The notes beneath the pieces were generated by a model. That model worked only from the letters and a program-made list of their open reading frames with translations. It did no database searches and was not told where the DNA came from. A program made the position numbers and the translations under genes. DNA of 20,598 nt from a virus. Location of the stretch: positions 1-20,598 of IMG/VR virus record IMGVR_UViG_3300042691_036900. The stretch is one strand, 5' to 3'. Below are positions 4,198 through 20,515 of the stretch, piece by piece; the stretch's first letter is position 1, and every line of letters begins with the position of its first letter.

Positions 4198-4926
4198 ATG
4201 AGCCTATCTAAAACTTTAGTAGTAAGCAACCATGCAAATCATGACTTAGAATGGTTAAAGATAACTTATGAATATGGTTTTTCACCAGAAAATATTATCA
4301 TCTATGATAGAACTCCAGATGATTTTCCTCAAAAATCAAAAATAGATCATTTAGGAAAAGTAATAAAATCTCCAAATGTAGGATCAAATCCTTATGATAT
4401 TGGTAGATATATTTTTGATCATTATGAAGATCTTCCTGATATGATGATTCATATTAAAGGAAATCTTTTGCAGAAAAAATACACAACTGAAGAAAAATTT
4501 ATCTATGCCTTAAAATCTAATTGGTTTGTTCCGATTGATGGTGGAACATTGTGCGATTCTTATTTTCCTTATTTTGTAAATGATAATTGGTTTGCACAAC
4601 CTATGGAATGGGAAGATAGAATAGAGAGTGAGAAGTCAGAAGAGATTAAAAATATGAAAGTCTATCCTAGAATTTCTAGTCTTAGAGAATTCATCCAAGA
4701 TCTTTTTATTATAGATACTATTCCTAAGTTTCTTAGTTTTGCTCCAGGAGCAAATTATGCCGTACCTAAAAACTGTATTTTGAAGTACAGTAAAAACTTT
4801 TATAAAAAAATGATGCACTATACGGATTATAATAACAATCCAATTGAATCTCATTGGTTTGAAAGAATCTTGCAAATGGCATGGCAAGGTTGTCTTCAAG
4901 AAAATTTTTCTTACACAGTAGAATGA
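4198..4926 (+). CDS. DUF3431-like protein, possible glycosyltransferase, 242 aa
   Basis: The opening TLVVSNHANHDLEWL (6-20), the middle NVGSNPYDIGRYIFDHY (60-76) followed by MIHIKGN (83-89), and the late SFAPGANYAVPK (180-191) are what I associate with the uncharacterised DUF3431 family, thought to be GT-A-like. This assignment is from memory of the pattern, not a search. The ATG at 4198 is preferred over two upstream TTG codons; no strong ribosome site is visible. It overlaps the dehydratase gene that follows by ATGA. Neighbours suggest a role in glycan assembly. Confidence 0.7.
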   Translation: MSLSKTLVVSNHANHDLEWLKITYEYGFSPENIIIYDRTPDDFPQKSKIDHLGKVIKSPNVGSNPYDIGRYIFDHYEDLPDMMIHIKGNLLQKKYTTEEKFIYALKSNWFVPIDGGTLCDSYFPYFVNDNWFAQPMEWEDRIESEKSEEIKNMKVYPRISSLREFIQDLFIIDTIPKFLSFAPGANYAVPKNCILKYSKNFYKKMMHYTDYNNNPIESHWFERILQMAWQGCLQENFSYTVE

Positions 4927-6230
4927 ATATGAAAGAACAAGTAAAACAATTTATTGATGGATTATTTGACAGTCAAGAAGATTTTTTTCCATATCTTTAC
5001 AATAACGATTATGTAAAGGGGGAAAGTAATATTTTTTACTCTGGTCCTTATTGGGATAATCAAGAAATTGAAGCAGCTCTTAAGACCTTCTTTACGGGCA
5101 AATGGCTTTCTTCTGGTGAAAGTGTTAATAGGTTTGAAAGAGAGTTTTCAAAAAAGTTTAATTTTGGTTATTCTGTAATGGTGAACTCTGGGAGTTCTGC
5201 AAATTTAGTTATGATTGCGGCTCTCAAAAAATATTTTGGTTGGAAAGATGGAGATGAAATTATTGTTTCTGTTTGCGGTTTCCCCACAACACTGAATCCC
5301 ATTATCCAAAATAATTTGAAACCAGTATTTGTTGATATTGATTATCAAGATCTAAACTGGGATTTAGAACAAATTAGAAAGAAGATTACTCCAAATACAA
5401 GGGCATTATTTTCATCACCTGTTCTTGCAAATGCATATGACTATGATGAAATTTTGAATATCTGTGATGAATATGGTATTCATCTAATCGCAGATAATTG
5501 TGACAGTTTGGGTAGCAAGTGGAAAGGTAAGTATCTTACTGATCATGCTGTTGCTGCATCTTGTTCTTTCTACCCTGCACATCACATTACCACAATTGAA
5601 GGTGGTATGGTATCTTCTAATATTAAAGAAGTTGTAGATCTTGCTCGTAGTTTTGCTTGGTGGGGTAGAGACTGTTATTGTGTGGGATCCCAAAATCTTT
5701 TGAGTTGTGGTACTTGCGGAAAACGATTTGATAATTGGCTAATTGGATATGACAAAGTTGTTGATCATAAGTATGTTTTTGGTCAGATAGGATACAATTT
5801 AAAACCAATTGATATGCTTGGTTCTATTGGATCTGTTCAACTTAAGAAGTTTGATGAGATTCATTATCTTCGTAGATATAATAAGTCAAGACTTCATAAG
5901 ATTTTTGAAACTATTCCTGGAGTTCGTGTTGTTGATGAATTGCCAAATGCCGAAACAAGTTGGTTTGGTGTTCCTATTATTTGTGATGGGGATAAAACTG
6001 AACTTGTTAAATTCCTAGAAGATAATAAAATTCAAACTAGAAATTATTTTGCAGGTAATCTTCTTATACATCCTGCTTATAGACATTTAGAATCAGCATT
6101 TAATTATCCAAATGCGATGAAAGTTTTGGATAATGTATTTTTTGTTGGTTGTTCTCCCGTAATTACCGATTCTATGATAGAATATATAGAAGAAATTGTT
6201 AATCTCTACAAAACTGGACATCATGAGTAA
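4923..6230 (+). CDS. rfbH: RfbH/E1-type 3-dehydratase (PMP, [2Fe-2S])
   Basis: 435 aa, DegT/DnrJ/EryC1/StrS fold. The usual PLP lysine is replaced by histidine: SFYPAHHITTIEGG (215-228, His220/His221), the change that defines RfbH/E1 (and ColD). Cysteines at 193 (ADNCD), 251, 253 and 262 (or 265) closely follow the C-X57-C-X1-C-X7-C iron-sulfur ligand spacing known for E1, here with X8; this separates it from ColD, which lacks the cluster. The family removes the C3 hydroxyl of CDP-4-keto-6-deoxyglucose, leading to 3,6-dideoxyhexoses (abequose, paratose, tyvelose, ascarylose). The E1 reaction needs electrons from a reductase (RfbI/E3), which is absent here; a ferredoxin of host or phage might substitute. 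ATGA overlap upstream; 8-base overlap downstream. Confidence 0.9.
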   Translation: MNMKEQVKQFIDGLFDSQEDFFPYLYNNDYVKGESNIFYSGPYWDNQEIEAALKTFFTGKWLSSGESVNRFEREFSKKFNFGYSVMVNSGSSANLVMIAALKKYFGWKDGDEIIVSVCGFPTTLNPIIQNNLKPVFVDIDYQDLNWDLEQIRKKITPNTRALFSSPVLANAYDYDEILNICDEYGIHLIADNCDSLGSKWKGKYLTDHAVAASCSFYPAHHITTIEGGMVSSNIKEVVDLARSFAWWGRDCYCVGSQNLLSCGTCGKRFDNWLIGYDKVVDHKYVFGQIGYNLKPIDMLGSIGSVQLKKFDEIHYLRRYNKSRLHKIFETIPGVRVVDELPNAETSWFGVPIICDGDKTELVKFLEDNKIQTRNYFAGNLLIHPAYRHLESAFNYPNAMKVLDNVFFVGCSPVITDSMIEYIEEIVNLYKTGHHE

Positions 6231-9379: not shown

Positions 9380-10399
9380 ATGAAAGCAGCAGTATTAGTG
9401 AAAATTGATGCACCTCTTACAGTGTGCAATGTTGAATTGACCGAACTCAAAGTTGGTCAAGTTCTTGTTAAAGTTCTTGTAAGTGGTCTATGTGGAGCTC
9501 AACTTCATGAGATTAGGGGGCATAAAGGAAATGCTAAGTTCCTCCCCCATCTGATGGGACATGAAGGATGTGGAGTTGTTGAGGCTGTCGGAGATGGCGT
9601 GACAACTGTTAAAGTAGGTGATAGGGTTGTTATGCACTGGAGACCTGGATCTGGTATTGAAGCACCATTTCCAAGTTATGTTCTTGATGGAAAGACAATG
9701 AGTAGTGGTAAGGTTACTACTTTGAGTGAATATTCTATTGTTTCTGAAAATAGGTTGACTGTAGTTCCTCAGGATACTCCAGCAGAACTTTGTGCTATTC
9801 TCGGTTGTGCCCTTACGACTGCTATGGGCATTATTGATAATGAAGTTGATCTTAAATTTGGTGAGAGTGTTGCCGTTATCGGAACTGGGGGAGTTGGACT
9901 GAATTTGATTCAGGCAGCAGCAATGAAGAGTGCCTGTCCTATTATCGCGGTGGACAATAATCCAACCAAGGAACAGATGTGTCTTGATATTGGTGCAAGT
10001 AAGTTCTATACTTCTATCGATCAAATTGAAGGGAAAGTTGATATTGTAATTGATACGACAGGAATTCCTGAAGTTATTAGTCAAGGTATCTCCATTCTTT
10101 CAAACACAGGTAGAATGATTCTTGTGGGTCAACCTGCTCCAGGAAAGTTTGTTGAAGTGATGAATGCCGTTAATCTTTTCAATGGAATCGGACAAAGCAT
10201 TAAAGCAACGCAGGGTGGAAAAACGAATCCTCAGGAAGATATACCTCGTTATATTAAACTATATAAGGAAGGACTATTGGATGTAAGTAAATTAATAACA
10301 CATACATTCACATTAGATCAAATCAATGAAGCATTTGACTTGCTTAAATCTGGAAATGCTGGTAGAATTATGATTAAAATTGTAGAGGAACTTGTATGA
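9380..10399 (+). CDS. Zinc-dependent alcohol dehydrogenase (MDR)
   Basis: 339 aa. The catalytic zinc ligands Cys38 (SGLCGAQ), His61-Glu62 (MGHEGCG) and Cys143 (LGCALTTAMG) are present. The four-cysteine structural zinc loop is missing: around 87-118 the sequence instead reads WRPGSGIEAPFPSY and onwards. The NAD(P) motif GTGGVG is at 168-173, followed by an acidic AVDNN, suggesting NAD preference. It is joined to the thiamine-diphosphate enzyme gene by ATGA, so the pair probably works together, for instance oxidising or reducing a sugar carbonyl/alcohol before or after the carbon-carbon step. The base composition is somewhat less AT-rich than the flanking genes. Confidence 0.88.
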   Translation: MKAAVLVKIDAPLTVCNVELTELKVGQVLVKVLVSGLCGAQLHEIRGHKGNAKFLPHLMGHEGCGVVEAVGDGVTTVKVGDRVVMHWRPGSGIEAPFPSYVLDGKTMSSGKVTTLSEYSIVSENRLTVVPQDTPAELCAILGCALTTAMGIIDNEVDLKFGESVAVIGTGGVGLNLIQAAAMKSACPIIAVDNNPTKEQMCLDIGASKFYTSIDQIEGKVDIVIDTTGIPEVISQGISILSNTGRMILVGQPAPGKFVEVMNAVNLFNGIGQSIKATQGGKTNPQEDIPRYIKLYKEGLLDVSKLITHTFTLDQINEAFDLLKSGNAGRIMIKIVEELV

Positions 10400-11598
10400 G
10401 AAAGAAGTGGACTAAGGAAGAACTAATTGCTTTTGAGGATCATATTGGAGATCTATATCTTGATAATAAGCTTCCATTTCTTTTTCATTTATCGGGAGGG
10501 AATGAAGATCAACTAATTGAAATTTTTGAGAACATTAATGAAGGTGATTATGTAATCTCAAATCACCGTAATCATTACCATGCACTTCTTCATGGTATCC
10601 CTCCTGAAGATGTTGAAGATAGAATTCTCAATGGTAGGAGTATGTTTATCTATGATAGGCAACGTAACTTCTTCCTTTCTGCCATCATTGGTGGAACTCC
10701 TGCCATCGCTGCAGGTATTGCTTGGGCTCTAAAACGTAAAGGTTCTAAGCAAAAAGTCTGGTGCTTTGTTGGTGATGGTACTGAAGATAACGGACATCTT
10801 GCTGAGGCAATCCGTTATGTTGATGGTTGGGATCTTCCCTGCACCTTTGTGATTGAGAGTAATGATAGATCCTGTGAAGCATCCAATGCAGATCGTTGGG
10901 GAAAAACTGGACATCCTGAATGGAATTCTCCATCCGTAATTCGATATAAGTATACTTGTACTTATCCTCACTGCCGTAAACCTGGAATGATCGATCTCTC
11001 CAAGGCAGTTAAAAAGACTGATGAAGAGTATTTCCCTCTTCTTCCTGAGTTTACTTATCCCGAATATCCTGAACTTGATGGATCTGACATTAGCTACAAG
11101 GATGCTATCGTTCAATCAATGAATGAACTTGGTGAACAAGGTGCAATCTTTATCGGATATAATGTTGCATATGGTGATGCAATGGGTACTCTTAAGGGTG
11201 TCCCCGCAGAACAAAAACTGGAAACTCCAGTTGCCGAAAACCTGATGGCAGGACTTGCTATCGGTATGTCATTTGAAGGATTTCTTCCCGTTCTCTATTA
11301 CGAACGTCATGACTTTATGTTAGTTGCTGCTGATGCAATCATTAATCATATCGATAAGATTGAAAGAATTTCTCATGGAGAATTCAAAGTTCCTGTGATT
11401 ATTCGTGCAGTGACTGCTGATGCTGGTCCGTTCTATTCGGGAATTACCCACTCGCAGGACTTTACTGAAATGTTCCGATCTGCAGTAAGTTTCCCTGTCA
11501 TTGATCCTGTAACTGGTATTGATGTTCTTAAAGCAGTTCGTGGTGCTGTTGAGAGTGGAAAACCAATGATGTTGATTGAAAGAAAATCTAGGTACTGA
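10396..11598 (+). CDS. Compact fused E1-alpha/E1-beta-like thiamine-diphosphate enzyme
   Basis: 400 aa. The first half matches the alpha subunit of 2-oxo-acid dehydrogenase E1: NHRNHYHALLHGI (56-68), GTPAIAAGIAWALK (100-113), and the ThDP motif GDG (126-128)-X27-Asn156. The second half matches the E1-beta pyrimidine-binding domain: PVAENLMAGLAIGM (278-291, Glu281 in the place of the cofactor-activating Glu), then a YYERHDFMLVAADAI stretch. The protein ends at IERKSRY (394-400), so the transketolase C-terminal domain of E1-beta is absent. Separate subunits would total about 650 aa. ThDP enzymes in sugar pathways add two-carbon units; AviB1/AviB2 of avilamycin biosynthesis are E1-like. A role in branched-chain sugar formation with the adjacent dehydrogenase is inference. 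Confidence 0.82.
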   Translation: MRKKWTKEELIAFEDHIGDLYLDNKLPFLFHLSGGNEDQLIEIFENINEGDYVISNHRNHYHALLHGIPPEDVEDRILNGRSMFIYDRQRNFFLSAIIGGTPAIAAGIAWALKRKGSKQKVWCFVGDGTEDNGHLAEAIRYVDGWDLPCTFVIESNDRSCEASNADRWGKTGHPEWNSPSVIRYKYTCTYPHCRKPGMIDLSKAVKKTDEEYFPLLPEFTYPEYPELDGSDISYKDAIVQSMNELGEQGAIFIGYNVAYGDAMGTLKGVPAEQKLETPVAENLMAGLAIGMSFEGFLPVLYYERHDFMLVAADAIINHIDKIERISHGEFKVPVIIRAVTADAGPFYSGITHSQDFTEMFRSAVSFPVIDPVTGIDVLKAVRGAVESGKPMMLIERKSRY

Positions 11599-11606
11599 GT
11601 GTTTAT

Positions 11607-12455
11607 ATGAAAACTTATATTTGCACAGGTATTGGTGATATGATGTCCTTAGATGCTGTGATATCACCAGAAGAAAAGGAAAGTATTACTGAAATTTATT
11701 GGGGTTGTAGATTCGGTAAAAATTTAATTCCACTTTTTGAAAATAATCCAGAATACCCCAATCTTAAAAAACAGCATGTGATCGACGATGAAGTTGGTAA
11801 GAAAGCAATGTCAACTCTAGATCCAATTGCAGTTCCTTTCTGGCATTTTAGACCAGATATCCCTAAAAATCTTCAAGTGGGGTTAAAATTATTTGGTATT
11901 GAAAATGAAGAAATTCAACTAGTTGATGCAGCAGCAAGATTCCTTGATGTTGGTAGAATGGTTAGATCTGGAAAAGATCTTAGTGAATTTTATTATGGTT
12001 CTTCTCTAATAAGAAATTCTAAAAATCCAGAATTAGGAAACTTTATTCTTTTTCATTATCCAACATCAACTAGACCAAGGAATGACATATCTACAATAGA
12101 CTCTTCTGATTGGGAGTTTGTTGAGCAATTATCAAATACTACAGGATTAAAAGTTATTGTAGTATCTGATTGTGAGATTGATGTTCCTCTAACAAATTAT
12201 TCTTTATTGATTAATCCAGACATTAAATTTATTGTGGATTTAGCATCTTATTGTGATTATTATGTTGGATGTGATTCTTTTTGTGGAATTCTTTCTTCGA
12301 ATAGACTTCCAAAAGAAAAAATATATATGAAGACCCATGATAGAAATATTAAACAAAATGTAGGTGCTGAATCTGCATATTATTCCTGTCATTTTCTTCC
12401 ACATCCTCCGAATGATATTGCTTATTTTTATAAACCTTATATTGGGGAACCGTGA
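11607..12455 (+). CDS. GT9-like glycosyltransferase, 282 aa
   Basis: YICTGIGDMMSLDAV (4-18) resembles the N-terminal GxGD loop of GT9 heptosyltransferases and O-antigen relatives. NFILFHYPTSTRPRND (145-160) would be the inter-domain strand. DLASYCDYYVGCDSFCGIL (211-229) matches the C-terminal donor loop (ADxvVgvDSGxxHlA type, with Cys in place of Gly). The protein is shorter than classic members. It sits directly before the HldE-like kinase, with a GTGA overlap, so ADP-heptose or a related donor is a reasonable guess. Confidence 0.65.
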   Translation: MKTYICTGIGDMMSLDAVISPEEKESITEIYWGCRFGKNLIPLFENNPEYPNLKKQHVIDDEVGKKAMSTLDPIAVPFWHFRPDIPKNLQVGLKLFGIENEEIQLVDAAARFLDVGRMVRSGKDLSEFYYGSSLIRNSKNPELGNFILFHYPTSTRPRNDISTIDSSDWEFVEQLSNTTGLKVIVVSDCEIDVPLTNYSLLINPDIKFIVDLASYCDYYVGCDSFCGILSSNRLPKEKIYMKTHDRNIKQNVGAESAYYSCHFLPHPPNDIAYFYKPYIGEP

Positions 12456-13180
12456 AAAAAATTTTAGTTATTGGTGAAAGTTGTAGAGACATTTTTGTAT
12501 ATTGTAATTCCAATAGATTGTGTCCAGAGGCACCTGTTCCAGTTCTGAACATTGTTGATCAGAGAGAGAATCCTGGAATGGCTGGTAATGTCCGTAGAAA
12601 TATTGAGAGTATATATGGAAAAGTTGATATCCATACTAATAGAGATTGGTATGAAATAACTAAAACTAGATATGTGCATCAAGAAACCAATCACATGTTT
12701 TTTAGAGTCGATACTACTCAGGAAATAAAGAGAACAAATGTTAAAAAAATAGATCTAGATTGTGAAGTGGTTGTTATTTCTGATTATAATAAAGGATTCC
12801 TAACAGAAGAAGATATTGAATATATTTGTTCTAATCATGATAATGTTTTTATAGACACTAAAAAAATTCTTGGTAGTTGGGTAAACAAAGCGAGATTTAT
12901 AAAAATTAATGATGTTGAATATAATAATTCAAAATCTTTTCTCACTAAAGAATTATCAGAAAAAATAATTCACACTATGGGAGGACTGGGATGTGAGTAT
13001 AAGGGAAAAAGATATCCAACAAAAAAAGTAGAAGTTAAAGATTTATCAGGTGCTGGGGATACATTTATATCTGCATTTGTTGTTAAATTTTTAGAAACCG
13101 ATGATGTTGGAGAAAGTATTAAATATGCAAATTTATGTGCTTCAAAGGTGGTTGCACAAATGGGAGTGGGTGTGATATAA
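12452..13180 (+). CDS. HldE-like heptose-7-phosphate kinase, short form
   Basis: 242 aa, PfkB/ribokinase fold. LCPEAPVPVLN (23-33) and GMAGNV (42-47) match HldE. SDYNKG (110-115) and DLSGAGDTFISA (197-208, catalytic Asp203) complete the kinase signature. The domain is normally about 315-330 aa: here roughly 60-80 residues are missing, mainly after GNVRRNIESIYGK, where the substrate lid region normally lies, and the end after VAQMGVGV is trimmed. The start is GTG at 12452 (GTGA overlap). HldE phosphorylates heptose-7-phosphate to the 1,7-bisphosphate. In bacteria this domain is often fused to the nucleotidyltransferase, which is here a separate gene at 13997. The last codons hold a promoter. 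Confidence 0.85.
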   Translation: MKKILVIGESCRDIFVYCNSNRLCPEAPVPVLNIVDQRENPGMAGNVRRNIESIYGKVDIHTNRDWYEITKTRYVHQETNHMFFRVDTTQEIKRTNVKKIDLDCEVVVISDYNKGFLTEEDIEYICSNHDNVFIDTKKILGSWVNKARFIKINDVEYNNSKSFLTKELSEKIIHTMGGLGCEYKGKRYPTKKVEVKDLSGAGDTFISAFVVKFLETDDVGESIKYANLCASKVVAQMGVGVI

Positions 13181-13181
13181 T
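13152..13181 (+). promoter_or_regulatory. Internal promoter, extended -10
   Basis: TTGCAC (13152-13157), an 18-base spacer and TATAAT (13176-13181) preceded by TG (13173-13174). It overlaps the end and stop codon of the kinase gene. The predicted start lies about 20 bases before the HldD ATG at 13209, across a rare 28-base gap in an otherwise overlapping gene row. Confidence 0.5.
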
Positions 13182-13208
13182 ATAAAAAACATAATTGAAT
13201 ACCGACAA

Positions 13209-14000
13209 ATGGCAGGAAATTTGATTATACTTACTGGATCTCAAGGATTTATTGGAAAAAACTTCAAATCCAAATTAGAAAATATTATAGAACTTGACAA
13301 ACATAACTGTTGGGAATTTTTGGACACTTTTGATAAATGGGATGAAGTATCACTCATCCTTCATCAAGGTGCAATTTCTTCAACGACAGAAACGGATATT
13401 AATAAGATCCATAGATGGAATGTTGATTATACTCTTCGTTTGTTTGAGTATGCCATTCAGTATCAAATTCCAGTTAAATATGCTTCTTCTGCATCAGTCT
13501 ATGGGACTATGGATGGAACTATAGTTAATCCGTTAAATTATTATGCAATATCTAAATTGCAGATTGATTATTGGGTGCAGGATAATATAGATAAATTTAA
13601 AAGTATTCAAGGATTTAGATACTTTAATGTTTATGGTGATGGTGAGCAGGATAAGGGAGATCAGGCAAGTCCTGTGAGTAAATTTTCTAAACAAATTAAA
13701 GATACTGGAAAACTTAGATTATTTGATGGATCTGATTCTATGTTTAGAGATTTTATTTGCGTAGATGATGTAGTCAATATTGTTTTACATAATATTAAGA
13801 GTTCTGGTATATATGATCTAGGAACAAGTGATCCAGTAACCTTTAGTTATGTTGCTGATTGTGTTGTAGAAAAATATGGTGGAGAAATTGAAATAATTCC
13901 ATTTCCAAATAATCTAATAGGAAAATATCAAAATTTTACTTGTGCTCAAAAAGTTTGGGATAATTACAAGTTCAAGACAATAAAGGAATTTTTATCATGA
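13209..14000 (+). CDS. hldD: ADP-glycero-manno-heptose 6-epimerase-like (HldD/RfaD)
   Basis: 263 aa (typical HldD about 310). GSQGFIGKNF (10-19) is the cofactor motif. HQGAISSTTETD (52-63) is an HldD hallmark, as are FRYFNVYG and FICVDDVV. Catalytic Tyr112-x3-Lys116 (YAISK) is present. The C-terminal GIYDLGTSDPVTF and IPFPNNLIGKYQNFT also match HldD. HldD inverts C6 of ADP-D-glycero-D-manno-heptose. A short spacing follows the promoter at 13152-13181, and the gene ends with an ATGA overlap to the heptose nucleotidyltransferase. Confidence 0.88.
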   Translation: MAGNLIILTGSQGFIGKNFKSKLENIIELDKHNCWEFLDTFDKWDEVSLILHQGAISSTTETDINKIHRWNVDYTLRLFEYAIQYQIPVKYASSASVYGTMDGTIVNPLNYYAISKLQIDYWVQDNIDKFKSIQGFRYFNVYGDGEQDKGDQASPVSKFSKQIKDTGKLRLFDGSDSMFRDFICVDDVVNIVLHNIKSSGIYDLGTSDPVTFSYVADCVVEKYGGEIEIIPFPNNLIGKYQNFTCAQKVWDNYKFKTIKEFLS

Positions 14001-14398
14001 AAACTATTTTTGTAAATGGGTGTTTTGATATTCTTCATCCTGGACATATTGAATTATTTAAAATTGCAAAGTCTCTTGGTGATCGTTTGATTGTTGCTAC
14101 AGATACTGATCAAAAAATTAAACTTGATAAGGGAAACTCTAGACCTATCAATACATTATCTCACAGAAAGTTAATGTTAGAATCAATCAAATACATTGAT
14201 ATTGTTCTGACTTTTAATACAAATCTTGAACTTGAACGTCTAATAGAATTGTATAGACCGGATATTTTAGTCAAGGGTGGTGACTGGAGAGATGGTGAAA
14301 TAGTAGGAGGAAAATTTGCACAAGAAGTAAGATTCTTTGATAGATATGGCGAATACTCCACTACTAAATTTCTAGAACAATTTCAAGATCAATTATGA
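13997..14398 (+). CDS. HldE-like heptose-1-phosphate nucleotidyltransferase
   Basis: 133 aa, a stand-alone copy of the C-terminal domain of HldE. VNGCFDILHPGHIELF carries HxGH at 14-17. SRPINTLSHRKLM (48-60), RPDILVKGGDW (87-97) and YSTTKFLEQF (120-129, the ST-T-K motif) follow the HldE order exactly. The family transfers AMP from ATP to D-glycero-beta-D-manno-heptose-1-phosphate; CTP-using relatives exist. With the short kinase at 12452, HldD at 13209 and the HAD phosphatase at 14395, it would complete ADP-heptose synthesis except for the sedoheptulose-7-phosphate isomerase (GmhA), which I do not see. Confidence 0.88.
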   Translation: MKTIFVNGCFDILHPGHIELFKIAKSLGDRLIVATDTDQKIKLDKGNSRPINTLSHRKLMLESIKYIDIVLTFNTNLELERLIELYRPDILVKGGDWRDGEIVGGKFAQEVRFFDRYGEYSTTKFLEQFQDQL

Positions 14399-14721
14399 AA
14401 AAATATGTTGTTGATATTGATGGAACCATATGTACAACAGTAACTAATGGTGAATATTCGGGTGCTCTTCCAATTTATGATAGAATAGACAAAATAAATA
14501 AGTTATATGATGAAGGAAACTACATTGTATACCTAACTGCCAGAGGAATGGGTCGGCATAGTAATAATGCAGATCTGGCAAAAGCAAGATTTTATGACAT
14601 TACAGAACTTCAATTAAGATTGTGGGGATGTAAATATCATGAATTATTTCTAGGAAAACCCTCTGGTGATTTTTACATCGATGATAAAGGGATTAATTCA
14701 GATGAATTCTTCAAAAATTAA
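14395..14721 (+). CDS. HAD-superfamily phosphatase, 108 aa
   Basis: The HAD motifs are all visible in a minimal protein: DIDGT (7-11), Thr48 in YLTAR (46-50), Lys88 (GKPSG) and the acidic pair Asp96-Asp97 (YIDDK). It resembles small HAD proteins found in capsule and LPS clusters. Placed directly after the heptose nucleotidyltransferase (ATGA overlap), it is a candidate for the heptose-1,7-bisphosphate phosphatase step (GmhB in bacteria is also a HAD enzyme). The sequence is not GmhB itself: the zinc-loop cysteines of GmhB are not evident. Another sugar-phosphate substrate is equally possible. Confidence 0.78.
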   Translation: MKKYVVDIDGTICTTVTNGEYSGALPIYDRIDKINKLYDEGNYIVYLTARGMGRHSNNADLAKARFYDITELQLRLWGCKYHELFLGKPSGDFYIDDKGINSDEFFKN

Positions 14722-15916: not shown

Positions 15917-16719
15917 TGGATTTAACTTTTTTGATTCCTACTCGAATTGAGACGGAAGATCGTTTAAGGAATATTATTTCTTCTGTTTCTTATCTTCTTA
16001 AGCATATTCCTGCAAAGGTAATTGTTAAAGAAGTATCTAATCATCCTACCTTTAAGTTTAGAGCAATTCCAGAAATTAGAAAGTATGTCGATACTTCTAA
16101 TCTTGAATATTTGTATGAAGAAAGTTTGAAACCTTGGTTTTGTAAAAGTAAAGTATTAAATGATTTAATCGTTGCATCAAATACAAAAGTCGTAGCAAAT
16201 TATGATGCTGATGTAATTTTACCCATTCAATCATATTTTGAAGCTTATCAATTGATTGATGAAAAACATGCAGATGTAGTTTATCCCTATCAGTGTGGTG
16301 TTTATCAATGGAAAGTAGAATATAATTCGGATATCTGTAATGAGTTTATTACAAATTTGGATACAAAAATTCTAGATAAAAATAAAACACTTCATAACTC
16401 CACAATAGGGTGGAGTCAATTTGTAAATCGTCAGATTTATATTGACTCCTTTATGATGAATGAAAATTTTATTTCTTGGGGATGTGAAGATGATGAATTT
16501 TACTACCGTATGAGTTGTCTTGGTAAAAGAATTGCTCGTGTGAATAATTATGTCTATCATCTAGAGCATTCGAGAACACTAAATTCTTGGTTTAGTAATC
16601 CAAATTTTAATAATAATTATCAATTATGGAATAAAATTAAAACATTTGACAAAAATCAATTGATACAGTATTATAAGAATCAGGACTATCTAAAAAAACG
16701 CAGACAAGAATTGATATGA
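15913..16719 (+). CDS. GT2/GT7-like (galactosyltransferase C-domain) glycosyltransferase
   Basis: 268 aa, GT-A fold. LTFLIPTRIETEDRL (4-18) is the first strand and nucleotide region. NYDADVILP (96-104) carries the DxD metal motif. ISWGCEDDEFYYRM (187-200) matches the GWGxEDxD(L/F)xxR motif of the beta-1,4-galactosyltransferase C-terminal family, also found in bacterial polymerising GT2 enzymes. The next motif, VYHLEHSR, is the usual H-x-x-H/S metal-closing element. It lies between the two GT11 genes (ATGA overlap on both sides) and so probably makes the acceptor linkage fucosylated by them. Confidence 0.85.
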   Translation: MMDLTFLIPTRIETEDRLRNIISSVSYLLKHIPAKVIVKEVSNHPTFKFRAIPEIRKYVDTSNLEYLYEESLKPWFCKSKVLNDLIVASNTKVVANYDADVILPIQSYFEAYQLIDEKHADVVYPYQCGVYQWKVEYNSDICNEFITNLDTKILDKNKTLHNSTIGWSQFVNRQIYIDSFMMNENFISWGCEDDEFYYRMSCLGKRIARVNNYVYHLEHSRTLNSWFSNPNFNNNYQLWNKIKTFDKNQLIQYYKNQDYLKKRRQELI

Positions 16720-17534
16720 TAGGATTTAATGCTCTTGGTAGAATGGGGCGTCTGGCAAATCAAATGTTTCAGTACGCATCTCTTAAAGGTATTGCTAGAA
16801 ATGTGGGGACAGATATAATTGTTCCTTATTACAAAGATGCAGTAGATGATGGAATTGGTAATAAACTTCGATCTGAACTATTTGATAGTTTTAATCTTAA
16901 TGTGAGTATTGGTCTGTTGAATAATGGCAATGCTCCTGTAGTTCAAGAAAGATTTTTTCACTTTGATGAGGAACTTTTTAAACTTTGCCCAGACCATGTA
17001 TCTCTTCATGGATTTTTTCAATCTGAAAAATATTTCAAACATATTGAAACCGAGATTCGTCAAGATTTTGAATTTAATGATGATCTACTTGCTCCATGCA
17101 AAGAGATGATTGAATTGGTTGAAAATCCTATTGCTCTTCATATTCGAAGAACTGACTATGTAACTAATAGTGAAAATCATCATAATCTTTCTTTGAAGTA
17201 TTATGAAGATGCTCTATCTCACTTTAAATCGGATCGAAATATAATCGTCTTTTCTGATGATCCTAAATGGTGCAGTGAACAAAAATTATTTTCTGATGAT
17301 AGATTTTTGATTTCTGAAAATACTGATAACAGAGTAGATTTATGTCTGATGACTTTGTGTGATGATTTCATCATTGCAAATTCGTCATTTTCATGGTGGG
17401 GAGCATGGTTATCTTCCAGTAAAAATAAAAAAGTTATCGCACCTATTGAATGGTTTGGAAAAATAGGTTATACTAAAGATCATGATACTAAAGATTTAAT
17501 TCCTGATGAATGGATTAGAATTACAGATGGATAA
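16716..17534 (+). CDS. GT11 (alpha-1,2-fucosyltransferase family) glycosyltransferase, copy 2
   Basis: 272 aa. The same three motifs as copy 1: GRLANQMFQYASL (11-23), HIRRTDY (142-148, the canonical His form) and ANSSFSWWGAWL (221-232). The two proteins share the opening MIG-N-LG-x-GRL-NQMFQY and overall layout but have diverged clearly in the middle, so this is an old duplication or separate acquisition. It overlaps the GT25 gene by 8 bases at its 3' end. Copy 2 matches the family consensus better than copy 1. Confidence 0.9.
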   Translation: MIGFNALGRMGRLANQMFQYASLKGIARNVGTDIIVPYYKDAVDDGIGNKLRSELFDSFNLNVSIGLLNNGNAPVVQERFFHFDEELFKLCPDHVSLHGFFQSEKYFKHIETEIRQDFEFNDDLLAPCKEMIELVENPIALHIRRTDYVTNSENHHNLSLKYYEDALSHFKSDRNIIVFSDDPKWCSEQKLFSDDRFLISENTDNRVDLCLMTLCDDFIIANSSFSWWGAWLSSSKNKKVIAPIEWFGKIGYTKDHDTKDLIPDEWIRITDG

Positions 17535-18315
17535 AAATAAATCAATATCTAAAATTAAGGGTCTTCCCCCACTTCTATGGTTGAATTTGGATAATGATAC
17601 TCATCGTCGTGAGTATATGGAAAATCAATTTAAATATTGGGAAATCGAAAATCACATTCGTATTTCTGGATTTGATGGCAGAGTTAATGATGTATGTGAG
17701 CATTTAAGTGGACGTGCTCCAGATAATATGACTGAAAATGAGATTGGATGTTGTATGTCTCATTTGAAGGCAATCAAATACTTTTATGAAAATATGACTA
17801 ATGATTATGTTCTTATTGTGGAAGATGATGTAGTTATTGATTTGGCAAAGTTTTGGAATTTTAATTGGAAAGATTTTATTTCACATCTTCCCCATGATTG
17901 GGATTGTGTACAGTTAACTACAATATCTACCGGAAATATTCATATCAAACTACATCACTACTTTATTAACGATTTTTCAGCTGCGGCATATTTAATCACC
18001 AGACATCATGCCTCAAAAATTATTAAAAATCATGTTCGTGGACAAAAATTTAAATTAGATAATGGTGTAAAACCAAGACCTACTTCGGAAGATCTTATTT
18101 TTGGATCCGGAAAAACTTATTCAATTCCAATTTTTCTTTATAGTCTCAATCTTGGTTCAGCAATTCATCCTGAACACATTGATATCTATCATAGAGGTAG
18201 TCATGATGCACTATTAAATTTCTGGCAGAATCAGGGATGCCAAATGACAATTAAAGAATTGATGGAGTATGATCCCTATCTTGGAAGAATTTCTGAACCA
18301 ACACAAAGTGCTTGA
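17527..18315 (+). CDS. GT25 (LPS glycosyltransferase) family protein
   Basis: 262 aa. WLNLDNDTHRREYM (18-31) is the GT25 opening (xINLxxxxxRR). ENEIGCCMSHLKAI (70-83) is the family's E-x-GC-xSH motif. LIVEDDVVI (96-104) carries the metal-binding EDD. AAAYLITRHHASKI and HPEHIDIYHRGSHD follow in the expected order. GT25 enzymes (Lex1/LpsA type) usually add galactose or glucose to LPS cores. I chose the ATG at 17527 over 17506 because the GT25 start strand then begins near residue 14, and an 8-base overlap repeats a pattern seen at other junctions. Its stop codon lies inside the -35 box of the hli promoter. Confidence 0.88.
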   Translation: MDKNKSISKIKGLPPLLWLNLDNDTHRREYMENQFKYWEIENHIRISGFDGRVNDVCEHLSGRAPDNMTENEIGCCMSHLKAIKYFYENMTNDYVLIVEDDVVIDLAKFWNFNWKDFISHLPHDWDCVQLTTISTGNIHIKLHHYFINDFSAAAYLITRHHASKIIKNHVRGQKFKLDNGVKPRPTSEDLIFGSGKTYSIPIFLYSLNLGSAIHPEHIDIYHRGSHDALLNFWQNQGCQMTIKELMEYDPYLGRISEPTQSA

Positions 18316-20062: not shown

Positions 20063-20515
20063 ATGTTAAACTTGTCCGAAACTGAAATTGCTTGGATTGC
20101 TGGAATATTGGAAGGTGAAGGATACTTTGGAATAGACAATCGTTCCAAAGACCGTTATGAGGTTTCCAAATCTCCACCAGCACCTTTTATCAAAATTTCT
20201 ATGGTTGATGAAGATATTATTCAAAGGTTGAGTAAACTTTTAGATAAATCTTATTTTTCACCATCAAGAAAAACTGTAAAAGACAAACAAGTTTATACAC
20301 TTCATATCGGAGAGAAAGAAAAGGTATTATTCATTCTACAAAAAATACTTCCGTATATGGGAGTAAGAAGAGGAGAACGAATAACTGAATGCATTTCTCA
20401 TCTACAAACTTGGAAAGAGTGGGTAGAAAACGGTGGAAGAGTTGAAAACGCAAAACGAGCAAATCAAATTCGTCAACTGAAACAATCTAAGTCTAATGAT
20501 ATGGTTGTTTGTTAG
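20063..20515 (+). CDS. LAGLIDADG-family homing endonuclease, intron-encoded
   Basis: 150 aa. [15 protein letters not shown] (10-24) is a LAGLIDADG motif, with Glu18 (EGEG) as the metal-binding acid. One motif is clear, so the protein probably works as a homodimer; a second motif is not obvious. The middle (about 70-110) has alternating charged strands typical of the DNA-binding sheet, and the tail is basic ([13 protein letters not shown]). Homing endonucleases cut intron-less alleles at the insertion site so that the intron is copied in. The gene lies wholly within the P9-like loop; its stop codon is part of that stem. The intact ORF suggests the intron is still mobile or recently acquired. 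Confidence 0.88.

Follow-up and report, generated by a model that had tools for sequence, protein, structure and literature searches.

A compact thiamine diphosphate enzyme coupled to a zinc dehydrogenase in a cyanophage glycan region: candidate core of a sugar-building module

Two-subunit thiamine diphosphate (ThDP) enzymes of the alphaKADH2 type, among them AviB1/AviB2, Pau11/Pau12 and KbDH-alpha/beta, are proposed or have been shown to take a C2 unit from pyruvate and transfer it to a keto-sugar or a ketone analogue (PMC12247030, PMC4425429); this transfer to keto-sugars operates in several antibiotics (PMC12247030). Pau11 consists of 325 and Pau12 of 345 amino acids (PMC4425429). For miharamycin and amipurimycin, a similar logic has been proposed without in vitro test: an oxidoreductase forms a ketone, to which a split enzyme of the transketolase family adds a C2 unit from a hydroxyacetyl donor (PMC12247030). 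In lipopolysaccharide, the ThDP-dependent C2 branching of a keto-sugar is carried out by YerE (yersiniose), which belongs to the acetohydroxyacid synthase/decarboxylase family. Here, we compare with these systems a zinc dehydrogenase and a compact ThDP enzyme (Table 1), which are encoded in a stretch of viral DNA of 20,598 nucleotides (IMG/VR record IMGVR_UViG_3300042691_036900; in the following, the window). The same compact protein occurs in two cyanophages, Prochlorococcus phage P-TIM68 (AIR93527.1, 79% identity) and Synechococcus phage S-SM2 (ADO97531.1, 63%), where it is annotated as "transketolase central region-containing protein" and has no assigned function; in both phages, its gene adjoins the same zinc dehydrogenase and a carbohydrate kinase within a glycan cluster. 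Viral carriage of the pair has therefore been on record, without a function, since these two genomes. A description of the wider module considered below was not found in a literature search of mostly openly licensed papers, with most subscription literature outside its reach. The 20.6 kb window encodes many sugar enzymes and glycosyltransferases as well as one high-light-inducible-type protein; because of this gene content and of its best relatives, P-TIM68 and S-SM2, we assign it to the glycan region of a T4-like cyanophage.

Table 1. Features of the window that are considered in the text
Feature	Positions	Strand	Evidence
RfbH/ColD-type NDP-4-keto-6-deoxysugar 3-dehydrase	4881..6230	+	NF011936 4.1e-106; 3bcx_A 9.7e-71
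Zinc-dependent MDR (medium-chain dehydrogenase/reductase) alcohol dehydrogenase, 339 aa	9380..10399	+	Pfam, phrog_2640, conserved Zn ligands, structure model
Compact single-chain ThDP enzyme, 400 aa (predicted)	10396..11598	+	Pfam/NCBIfam/PHROG, alignments, model, PDB comparison
GDG-X27-N ThDP/Mg motif, residues 126-156	10771..10863	+	Sequence; invariant or nearly so
Catalytic Glu281 codon, motif ETPVAEN	11236..11238	+	Invariant; aligned with PDH (pyruvate dehydrogenase) E1-beta and full-length sugar-cluster E1-beta
His352 codon, HSQ motif, E1-beta active-site histidine position	11449..11451	+	Invariant; aligned to PDH E1-beta HSQ
Compact PfkB kinase, HldE domain-I (D-glycero-D-manno-heptose-7-phosphate kinase) type, 242 aa (putative)	12452..13180	+	TIGR02198 6e-33, PfkB 1.4e-13, conserved GAGD
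HldD-like ADP-glyceromanno-heptose 6-epimerase	13209..14000	+	TIGR02197 5e-61
HldC-like (HldE domain II) nucleotidyltransferase	13997..14398	+	TIGR02199 2.8e-34
Small EcbF/BcbF-type HAD (haloacid dehalogenase) phosphatase, associated gene	14395..14721	+	TIGR01689 2.7e-12

An initial annotation of the window had described the ThDP open reading frame (ORF) as a chain that combines the GDG-X27-N motif with an E1-beta-like domain carrying Glu281 and lacks the C-terminal transketolase domain, and it had proposed a profile search of both halves. This search found E1_dh at residues 12-157 (1.2e-15) and Transket_pyr at residues 232-400 (5.7e-10), which divides the chain into an E1-alpha-like pyrophosphate-binding (PP) half of about residues 1-190 and an E1-beta-like pyrimidine-binding (PYR) half of about residues 230-400. 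No Pfam match to Transketolase_C (PF02780) exists in the ORF, where nothing follows Transket_pyr, nor is there a separate domain of this kind anywhere in the complete genomes of P-TIM68 and S-SM2; its absence is a family-wide trait of the compact enzyme. The cofactor motif is made up of GDG at 126-128, 27 further residues and N156. All 41 homologues in an alignment share G126, D127, N156, E281, H31, H57, H62 and H352 without exception, and G128 is nearly invariant; the description given by the initial annotation was thus confirmed in all three respects. A chance ORF was ruled out by the match to phrog_34187 (2e-223), by this conservation, and by dN/dS values of 0.04-0.09 against close relatives, which signal strong purifying selection. 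With both halves present and the ThDP residues intact, the product is predicted to be a single-chain ThDP enzyme.

Profile searches place the chain closer to PDH-type E1 (6e-18) than to DXS/transketolase (about 1e-6); among the NCBIfam models, E1-alpha scores best (3.7e-24), whereas transketolase matches span only 40-54 residues around the GDG motif. We rejected an assignment to transketolase in the strict sense, for which neither specific sequence similarity nor Transketolase_C was found. Compared with full-length E1 proteins from sugar clusters, about 120 residues at the E1-alpha end and the entire E1-beta C-terminal domain are missing, and the active-site motifs HLS.G, THR.H.H, GDG, E..N..S,.EN and THSQ are retained. 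In PDH-type E1, the E1-beta C-terminal domain docks E2, and its loss agrees with a stand-alone enzyme. That the best sequence matches are PDH E1-alpha and E1-beta could nevertheless indicate that a host complex, a 2-oxoacid or acetoin dehydrogenase, was the source of the protein and that it serves as E1 there. We consider this reading very improbable: no E2- or E3-type domain occurs among the ORFs of the window that were scanned (whole phage genomes were not covered), the docking domain is absent throughout the family, and glycan genes are the neighbours in all lineages. In agreement with the initial annotation, we therefore rejected a dehydrogenase complex of the PDH or acetoin type, given the missing docking domain and the absence of E2/E3 from the window ORFs scanned.

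The AlphaFold model of the monomer (pLDDT 88.6, pTM 0.91) allows both halves to be compared with known structures. For 169 residues of the PYR half, superposition on PDH E1-beta (1w85_B) gave a Z-score of 22.6 and an RMSD of 1.8; for 353 residues of the whole chain, superposition on transketolase (3l84, monomer) gave a Z-score of 19.7 and an RMSD of 3.4. Because the whole model superposes on transketolase monomers, the halves are arranged as in a transketolase chain, with PP preceding PYR. This arrangement suggests a transketolase-like homodimer, in which ThDP would be bound between the PP domain of one chain and the PYR domain of the other. The YerE architecture is a different one (TPP_enzyme N, M and C domains in the order PYR-central-PP); the phage protein contains only E1_dh and Transket_pyr, and PP comes first. 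AviB-type enzymes resemble it in their E1-alpha- and E1-beta-type ThDP halves and their location in a sugar cluster. However, they consist of two full-length subunits of about 670 residues in total, including Transketolase_C, and serve antibiotic deoxysugars, whereas the phage enzyme has a single chain with 400 residues and is accompanied by a heptose-type kinase. The parallel to AviB1/AviB2 drawn by the initial annotation is consequently best read as an analogy in logic: judged by size and domain content, the protein is not a member of that family.

At the position where the initial annotation had placed an alcohol dehydrogenase (ADH), the domains ADH_N (1.6e-16) and ADH_zinc_N (5.6e-14) were found; the ORF belongs to phrog_2640. 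In an alignment with 77 relatives, the ligands of the catalytic zinc (C38, H61, C143), the Rossmann motif GxGGxG (168-173) and D192 are conserved; zinc ligands and Rossmann motif are hallmarks of a zinc MDR alcohol dehydrogenase. The cysteines of the structural zinc site are absent. The NAD-type Rossmann motif with D192 predicts NAD dependence. Superposition of the model (pLDDT 94.4) on a vertebrate ADH (1p0c_A) with VIA-align gave a Z-score of 42.6 and an RMSD of 1.6 for 325 residues; note that an ADH-family fold by itself would not tell the substrate. The two ORFs overlap in an ATGA at 10396-10399, whose ATG opens the ThDP ORF and whose TGA closes that of the dehydrogenase.

In order to follow this coupling beyond the window, gene neighbourhoods were surveyed, with 78 loci from one viral scan and 22 loci from one genome scan. 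The same dehydrogenase lies at most six genes away in 78 of the 81 loci with a fused enzyme and is directly adjacent in 71, and a compact, HldE-domain-I-related PfkB kinase lies within the same distance in 76; many of these loci are near-identical and the counts are not independent. Of the three loci without dehydrogenase, two (L037, L069) carry a radical S-adenosylmethionine (SAM) protein and one (L048) stops at a contig edge. That the ThDP gene is coupled to one for a zinc dehydrogenase and lies in a sugar cluster, as stated by the initial annotation, is thus borne out by overlap and survey; the linked unit, however, is larger than the pair described there and comprises dehydrogenase, ThDP enzyme and kinase. 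Nor is a virus-encoded system of this kind singular, given the 78 viral loci of a single scan and the cellular relatives. In one operon of a candidate phyla radiation (CPR) genome (G538, L152), a same-type ADH (8e-159) and the same compact kinase (2e-119) accompany an E1-alpha of 317 aa and an E1-beta of 363 aa, so that a full-length E1 pair occupies the place of the phage compact enzyme; the order ADH, E1-alpha, E1-beta is also found at L153.

The kinase shows the PfkB fold with HldE-type motifs, and we classify it by its sequence as a putative heptose kinase of the HldE domain-I type; its TIGR02198 score (114 of 345 bits) is below the equivalog cut-off, and the protein is internally shortened. 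In cyanophages, the genes that usually come after it are HldD-like, HldC-like, HAD and cupin genes; this arrangement looks like an activated-heptose pathway. Because this kinase is the constant partner, often together with HldC, HldD or GmhA, a heptose-type sugar is favoured over an antibiotic-type deoxysugar. HldC and HldD are present in the complete genomes of P-TIM68 and S-SM2, and GmhA has no match in either. Genes annotated as "phosphoheptose isomerase" in S-SM2 and P-TIM68 (L002, 21983-22294 and 23624-23953; L001, 17489-17827) were rejected as evidence for GmhA, as no GmhA match exists in either genome; by place and size they belong to the small HAD group, whose counterpart in the window is the EcbF-type HAD protein. 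Four CPR genomes (L087-L090) contain the triad of ADH, ThDP enzyme and kinase, and GmhA and HldC were not found in these metagenome-assembled genomes, which are possibly incomplete.

Such gene sets would suit a minimal transketolase-like enzyme that supplies a heptulose-type precursor to the heptose kinase and bypasses GmhA: P-TIM68 and S-SM2 possess HldC, HldD and kinase without GmhA, the four CPR genomes lack GmhA or HldC matches, the kinase is the most constant neighbour after the dehydrogenase, and the ThDP model superposes on transketolase. We regard this bypass as distinctly unlikely, as the sequence is nearer to PDH-type E1, cyanobacterial hosts produce sedoheptulose-7-phosphate regardless, and in Prochlorococcus and marine cyanobacteria the pair adjoins the genes of a heptose pathway that is complete or nearly so and includes GmhA; moreover, the bypass leaves the dehydrogenase or radical-SAM protein unexplained.

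A conserved operon recurs in marine cyanobacteria (L161-L164, L167). It encodes an L-2-hydroxyglutarate-oxidase-like protein, a nucleotidyltransferase for sugars, a SIS protein resembling GmhA, a methyltransferase, an ADH of the same family, an HldE-like protein whose domains are in reversed order, two epimerases and a full-length E1-alpha/E1-beta pair. Full-length E1 also occurs in Pelagibacter (L102, L103) together with ADH, reversed HldE and GmhA-like genes, and the compact-enzyme loci of Prochlorococcus adjoin HldE, HldD, GmhB-like and GmhA genes. These full-length pairs, including that of L152, share the motifs THRxHxH, SEN and GPTHSQ, the same-family ADH and an HldE-type kinase with the compact system; they differ in having two chains, Transketolase_C and complete E1-alpha C-terminal regions. 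Cellular relatives were found in Patescibacteria, DPANN archaea and Prochlorococcus; the compact form itself is rare in cells (about 5 of 279 DPANN, 1 of 380 CPR and 2 of 251 cyanobacterial-family genomes).

Information on the role of the dehydrogenase comes from lineages in which it is exchanged. Split compact enzymes of about 207 plus 174 aa, which are encoded by Nanoarchaeota, Pacearchaeota, other bacteria and a huge phage (L003), pair with a radical-SAM protein instead of a dehydrogenase; the archaeal one tested is of the SPASM type. A fused enzyme accompanied by radical SAM occurs in a DPANN genome (L154) and in the two phages mentioned above. Since L037 and L069 both nest within the dehydrogenase-type clade of the tree (group support 100/98), the partner has been exchanged there. 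Radical-SAM/SPASM proteins usually oxidise or isomerise and rarely reduce. That they take the place of the dehydrogenase in other lineages therefore makes it more likely that the partner reaction oxidises a hydroxyl and, with it, favours the order oxidation, then C2 addition.

In the mechanism that we propose, dehydrogenase, ThDP enzyme and kinase would form the core of a sugar-building module carried by the phage. Using NAD, the zinc dehydrogenase would convert a sugar hydroxyl into a ketone or aldehyde. The compact homodimer, holding ThDP between PP and the partner's PYR domain, would form a C2 carbanion-enamine, most likely from pyruvate, and its addition to the carbonyl made by the dehydrogenase would yield a sugar with a branch or a longer chain. 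An activated heptose-like sugar, the substrate or product of the C2 step, would be built by the heptose-type kinase together with the nucleotidyltransferase and the epimerase, and the E1-beta C-terminal domain would have been lost because no E2 takes part. We give an even chance to the central statement, that the dehydrogenase produces a keto-sugar and the ThDP enzyme then adds a C2 unit to it, both as steps of a heptose-type sugar pathway. The product is probably an unusual cell-surface sugar. The two-step logic of oxidation and subsequent C2 addition fits the neighbourhood survey, including the exchange of the dehydrogenase for a radical-SAM protein. The two-carbon branch-forming system named in the initial annotation persists as a C2 addition, which is favoured; a branch specifically was not borne out, chain extension and ketose synthesis being alternatives.

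Besides the redundancy of the loci counted, several points weigh against this mechanism. Donor, acceptor and product as well as the homodimer and the direction of the dehydrogenase are inferred, whereas the anatomy of the enzymes, the conserved catalytic residues, selection, the conservation of the operon, the interchange of compact and full-length E1 and the occurrence of either a dehydrogenase or a radical-SAM partner were observed. The similarity to known sugar-branching enzymes is at superfamily level only. In L037 and L069 the kinase is missing as well, which means that more than one gene changed in the exchange, and a radical-SAM protein need not share the reaction of the dehydrogenase but could act as an epimerase. 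In six loci of marine phages (L076-L081), a split enzyme is encoded with neither that ADH nor that radical-SAM family nearby; two of them (L076, L077) contain a different radical-SAM/SPASM protein, whose relevance is unproven. Finally, the ThDP enzyme might make a ketone that the dehydrogenase reduces, a role that Pau7 has in paulomycin (PMC4753412). In this reverse order, the ThDP enzyme would act first and attach the C2 unit to a keto-sugar or an aldehyde; reduction of the new ketone to a hydroxyethyl or polyol product would then fall to the dehydrogenase. This order is compatible with the reversibility of zinc dehydrogenases and with the translational coupling of the two ORFs. The occurrence of radical-SAM/SPASM proteins, a seldom reducing class, at the dehydrogenase position in several lineages speaks against it, and we judge the reverse order to be unlikely.

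Extending the oxidation-first mechanism to all lineages is more speculative, and we put it forward tentatively, as a possibility that we would not yet bet on. Cyanophages, marine cyanobacteria, SAR11, CPR bacteria and DPANN archaea would share an undescribed pathway, in which a heptose-type sugar is oxidised by the zinc dehydrogenase or an interchangeable radical-SAM protein and is branched or extended by a ThDP carboligase, whose minimal form of 400 residues was selected in viruses and small genomes. If true, the compact enzyme would be a natural minimal E1-type carboligase with the docking domain removed, from a family known for tertiary-alcohol sugars, and abundant microbes of the ocean would share a so far unread surface-sugar pathway with their viruses. 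Which cells a given phage can infect is decided by surface glycans. As some lineages have a dehydrogenase and others a radical-SAM protein, the chemistry can be tested directly.

Some observations concern the surroundings of these genes. Three of the marine phage loci with a split ThDP enzyme (L078, L079, L081) encode a 2-oxoglutarate/Fe (PhyH-type) oxygenase, whose relevance is unproven. AviO2 of avilamycin biosynthesis is a non-haem iron enzyme, too; the parallel may be a coincidence. Two compact ThDP genes from metagenome-assembled genomes labelled Bifidobacterium breve and Chlamydiae (L085, L086) group with viral sequences, and these contigs are probably misbinned or phage-derived.

The RfbH/ColD-type 3-dehydrase of the window, which recalls the yersiniose pathway of YerE, contains the motif FYPAHHIT, in which a histidine replaces the pyridoxal-phosphate lysine of aminotransferases. 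RmlB- and RmlC-like genes adjoin it, and in this setting it could supply a 3-deoxy-4-keto sugar; the 3-dehydrase is a possible supplier of a keto-sugar outside the conserved core. In the cyanobacterial locus L163, a related RfbH gene (12126-13445) follows the E1 operon, and a few genes further an acetolactate-synthase-like protein is encoded (16173-17969). This YerE/RfbH-like combination suggests a second branching pathway of the yersiniose type. At 20063-20515, the window encodes a LAGLIDADG-like protein with a weak match to PF14528, possibly a homing endonuclease.
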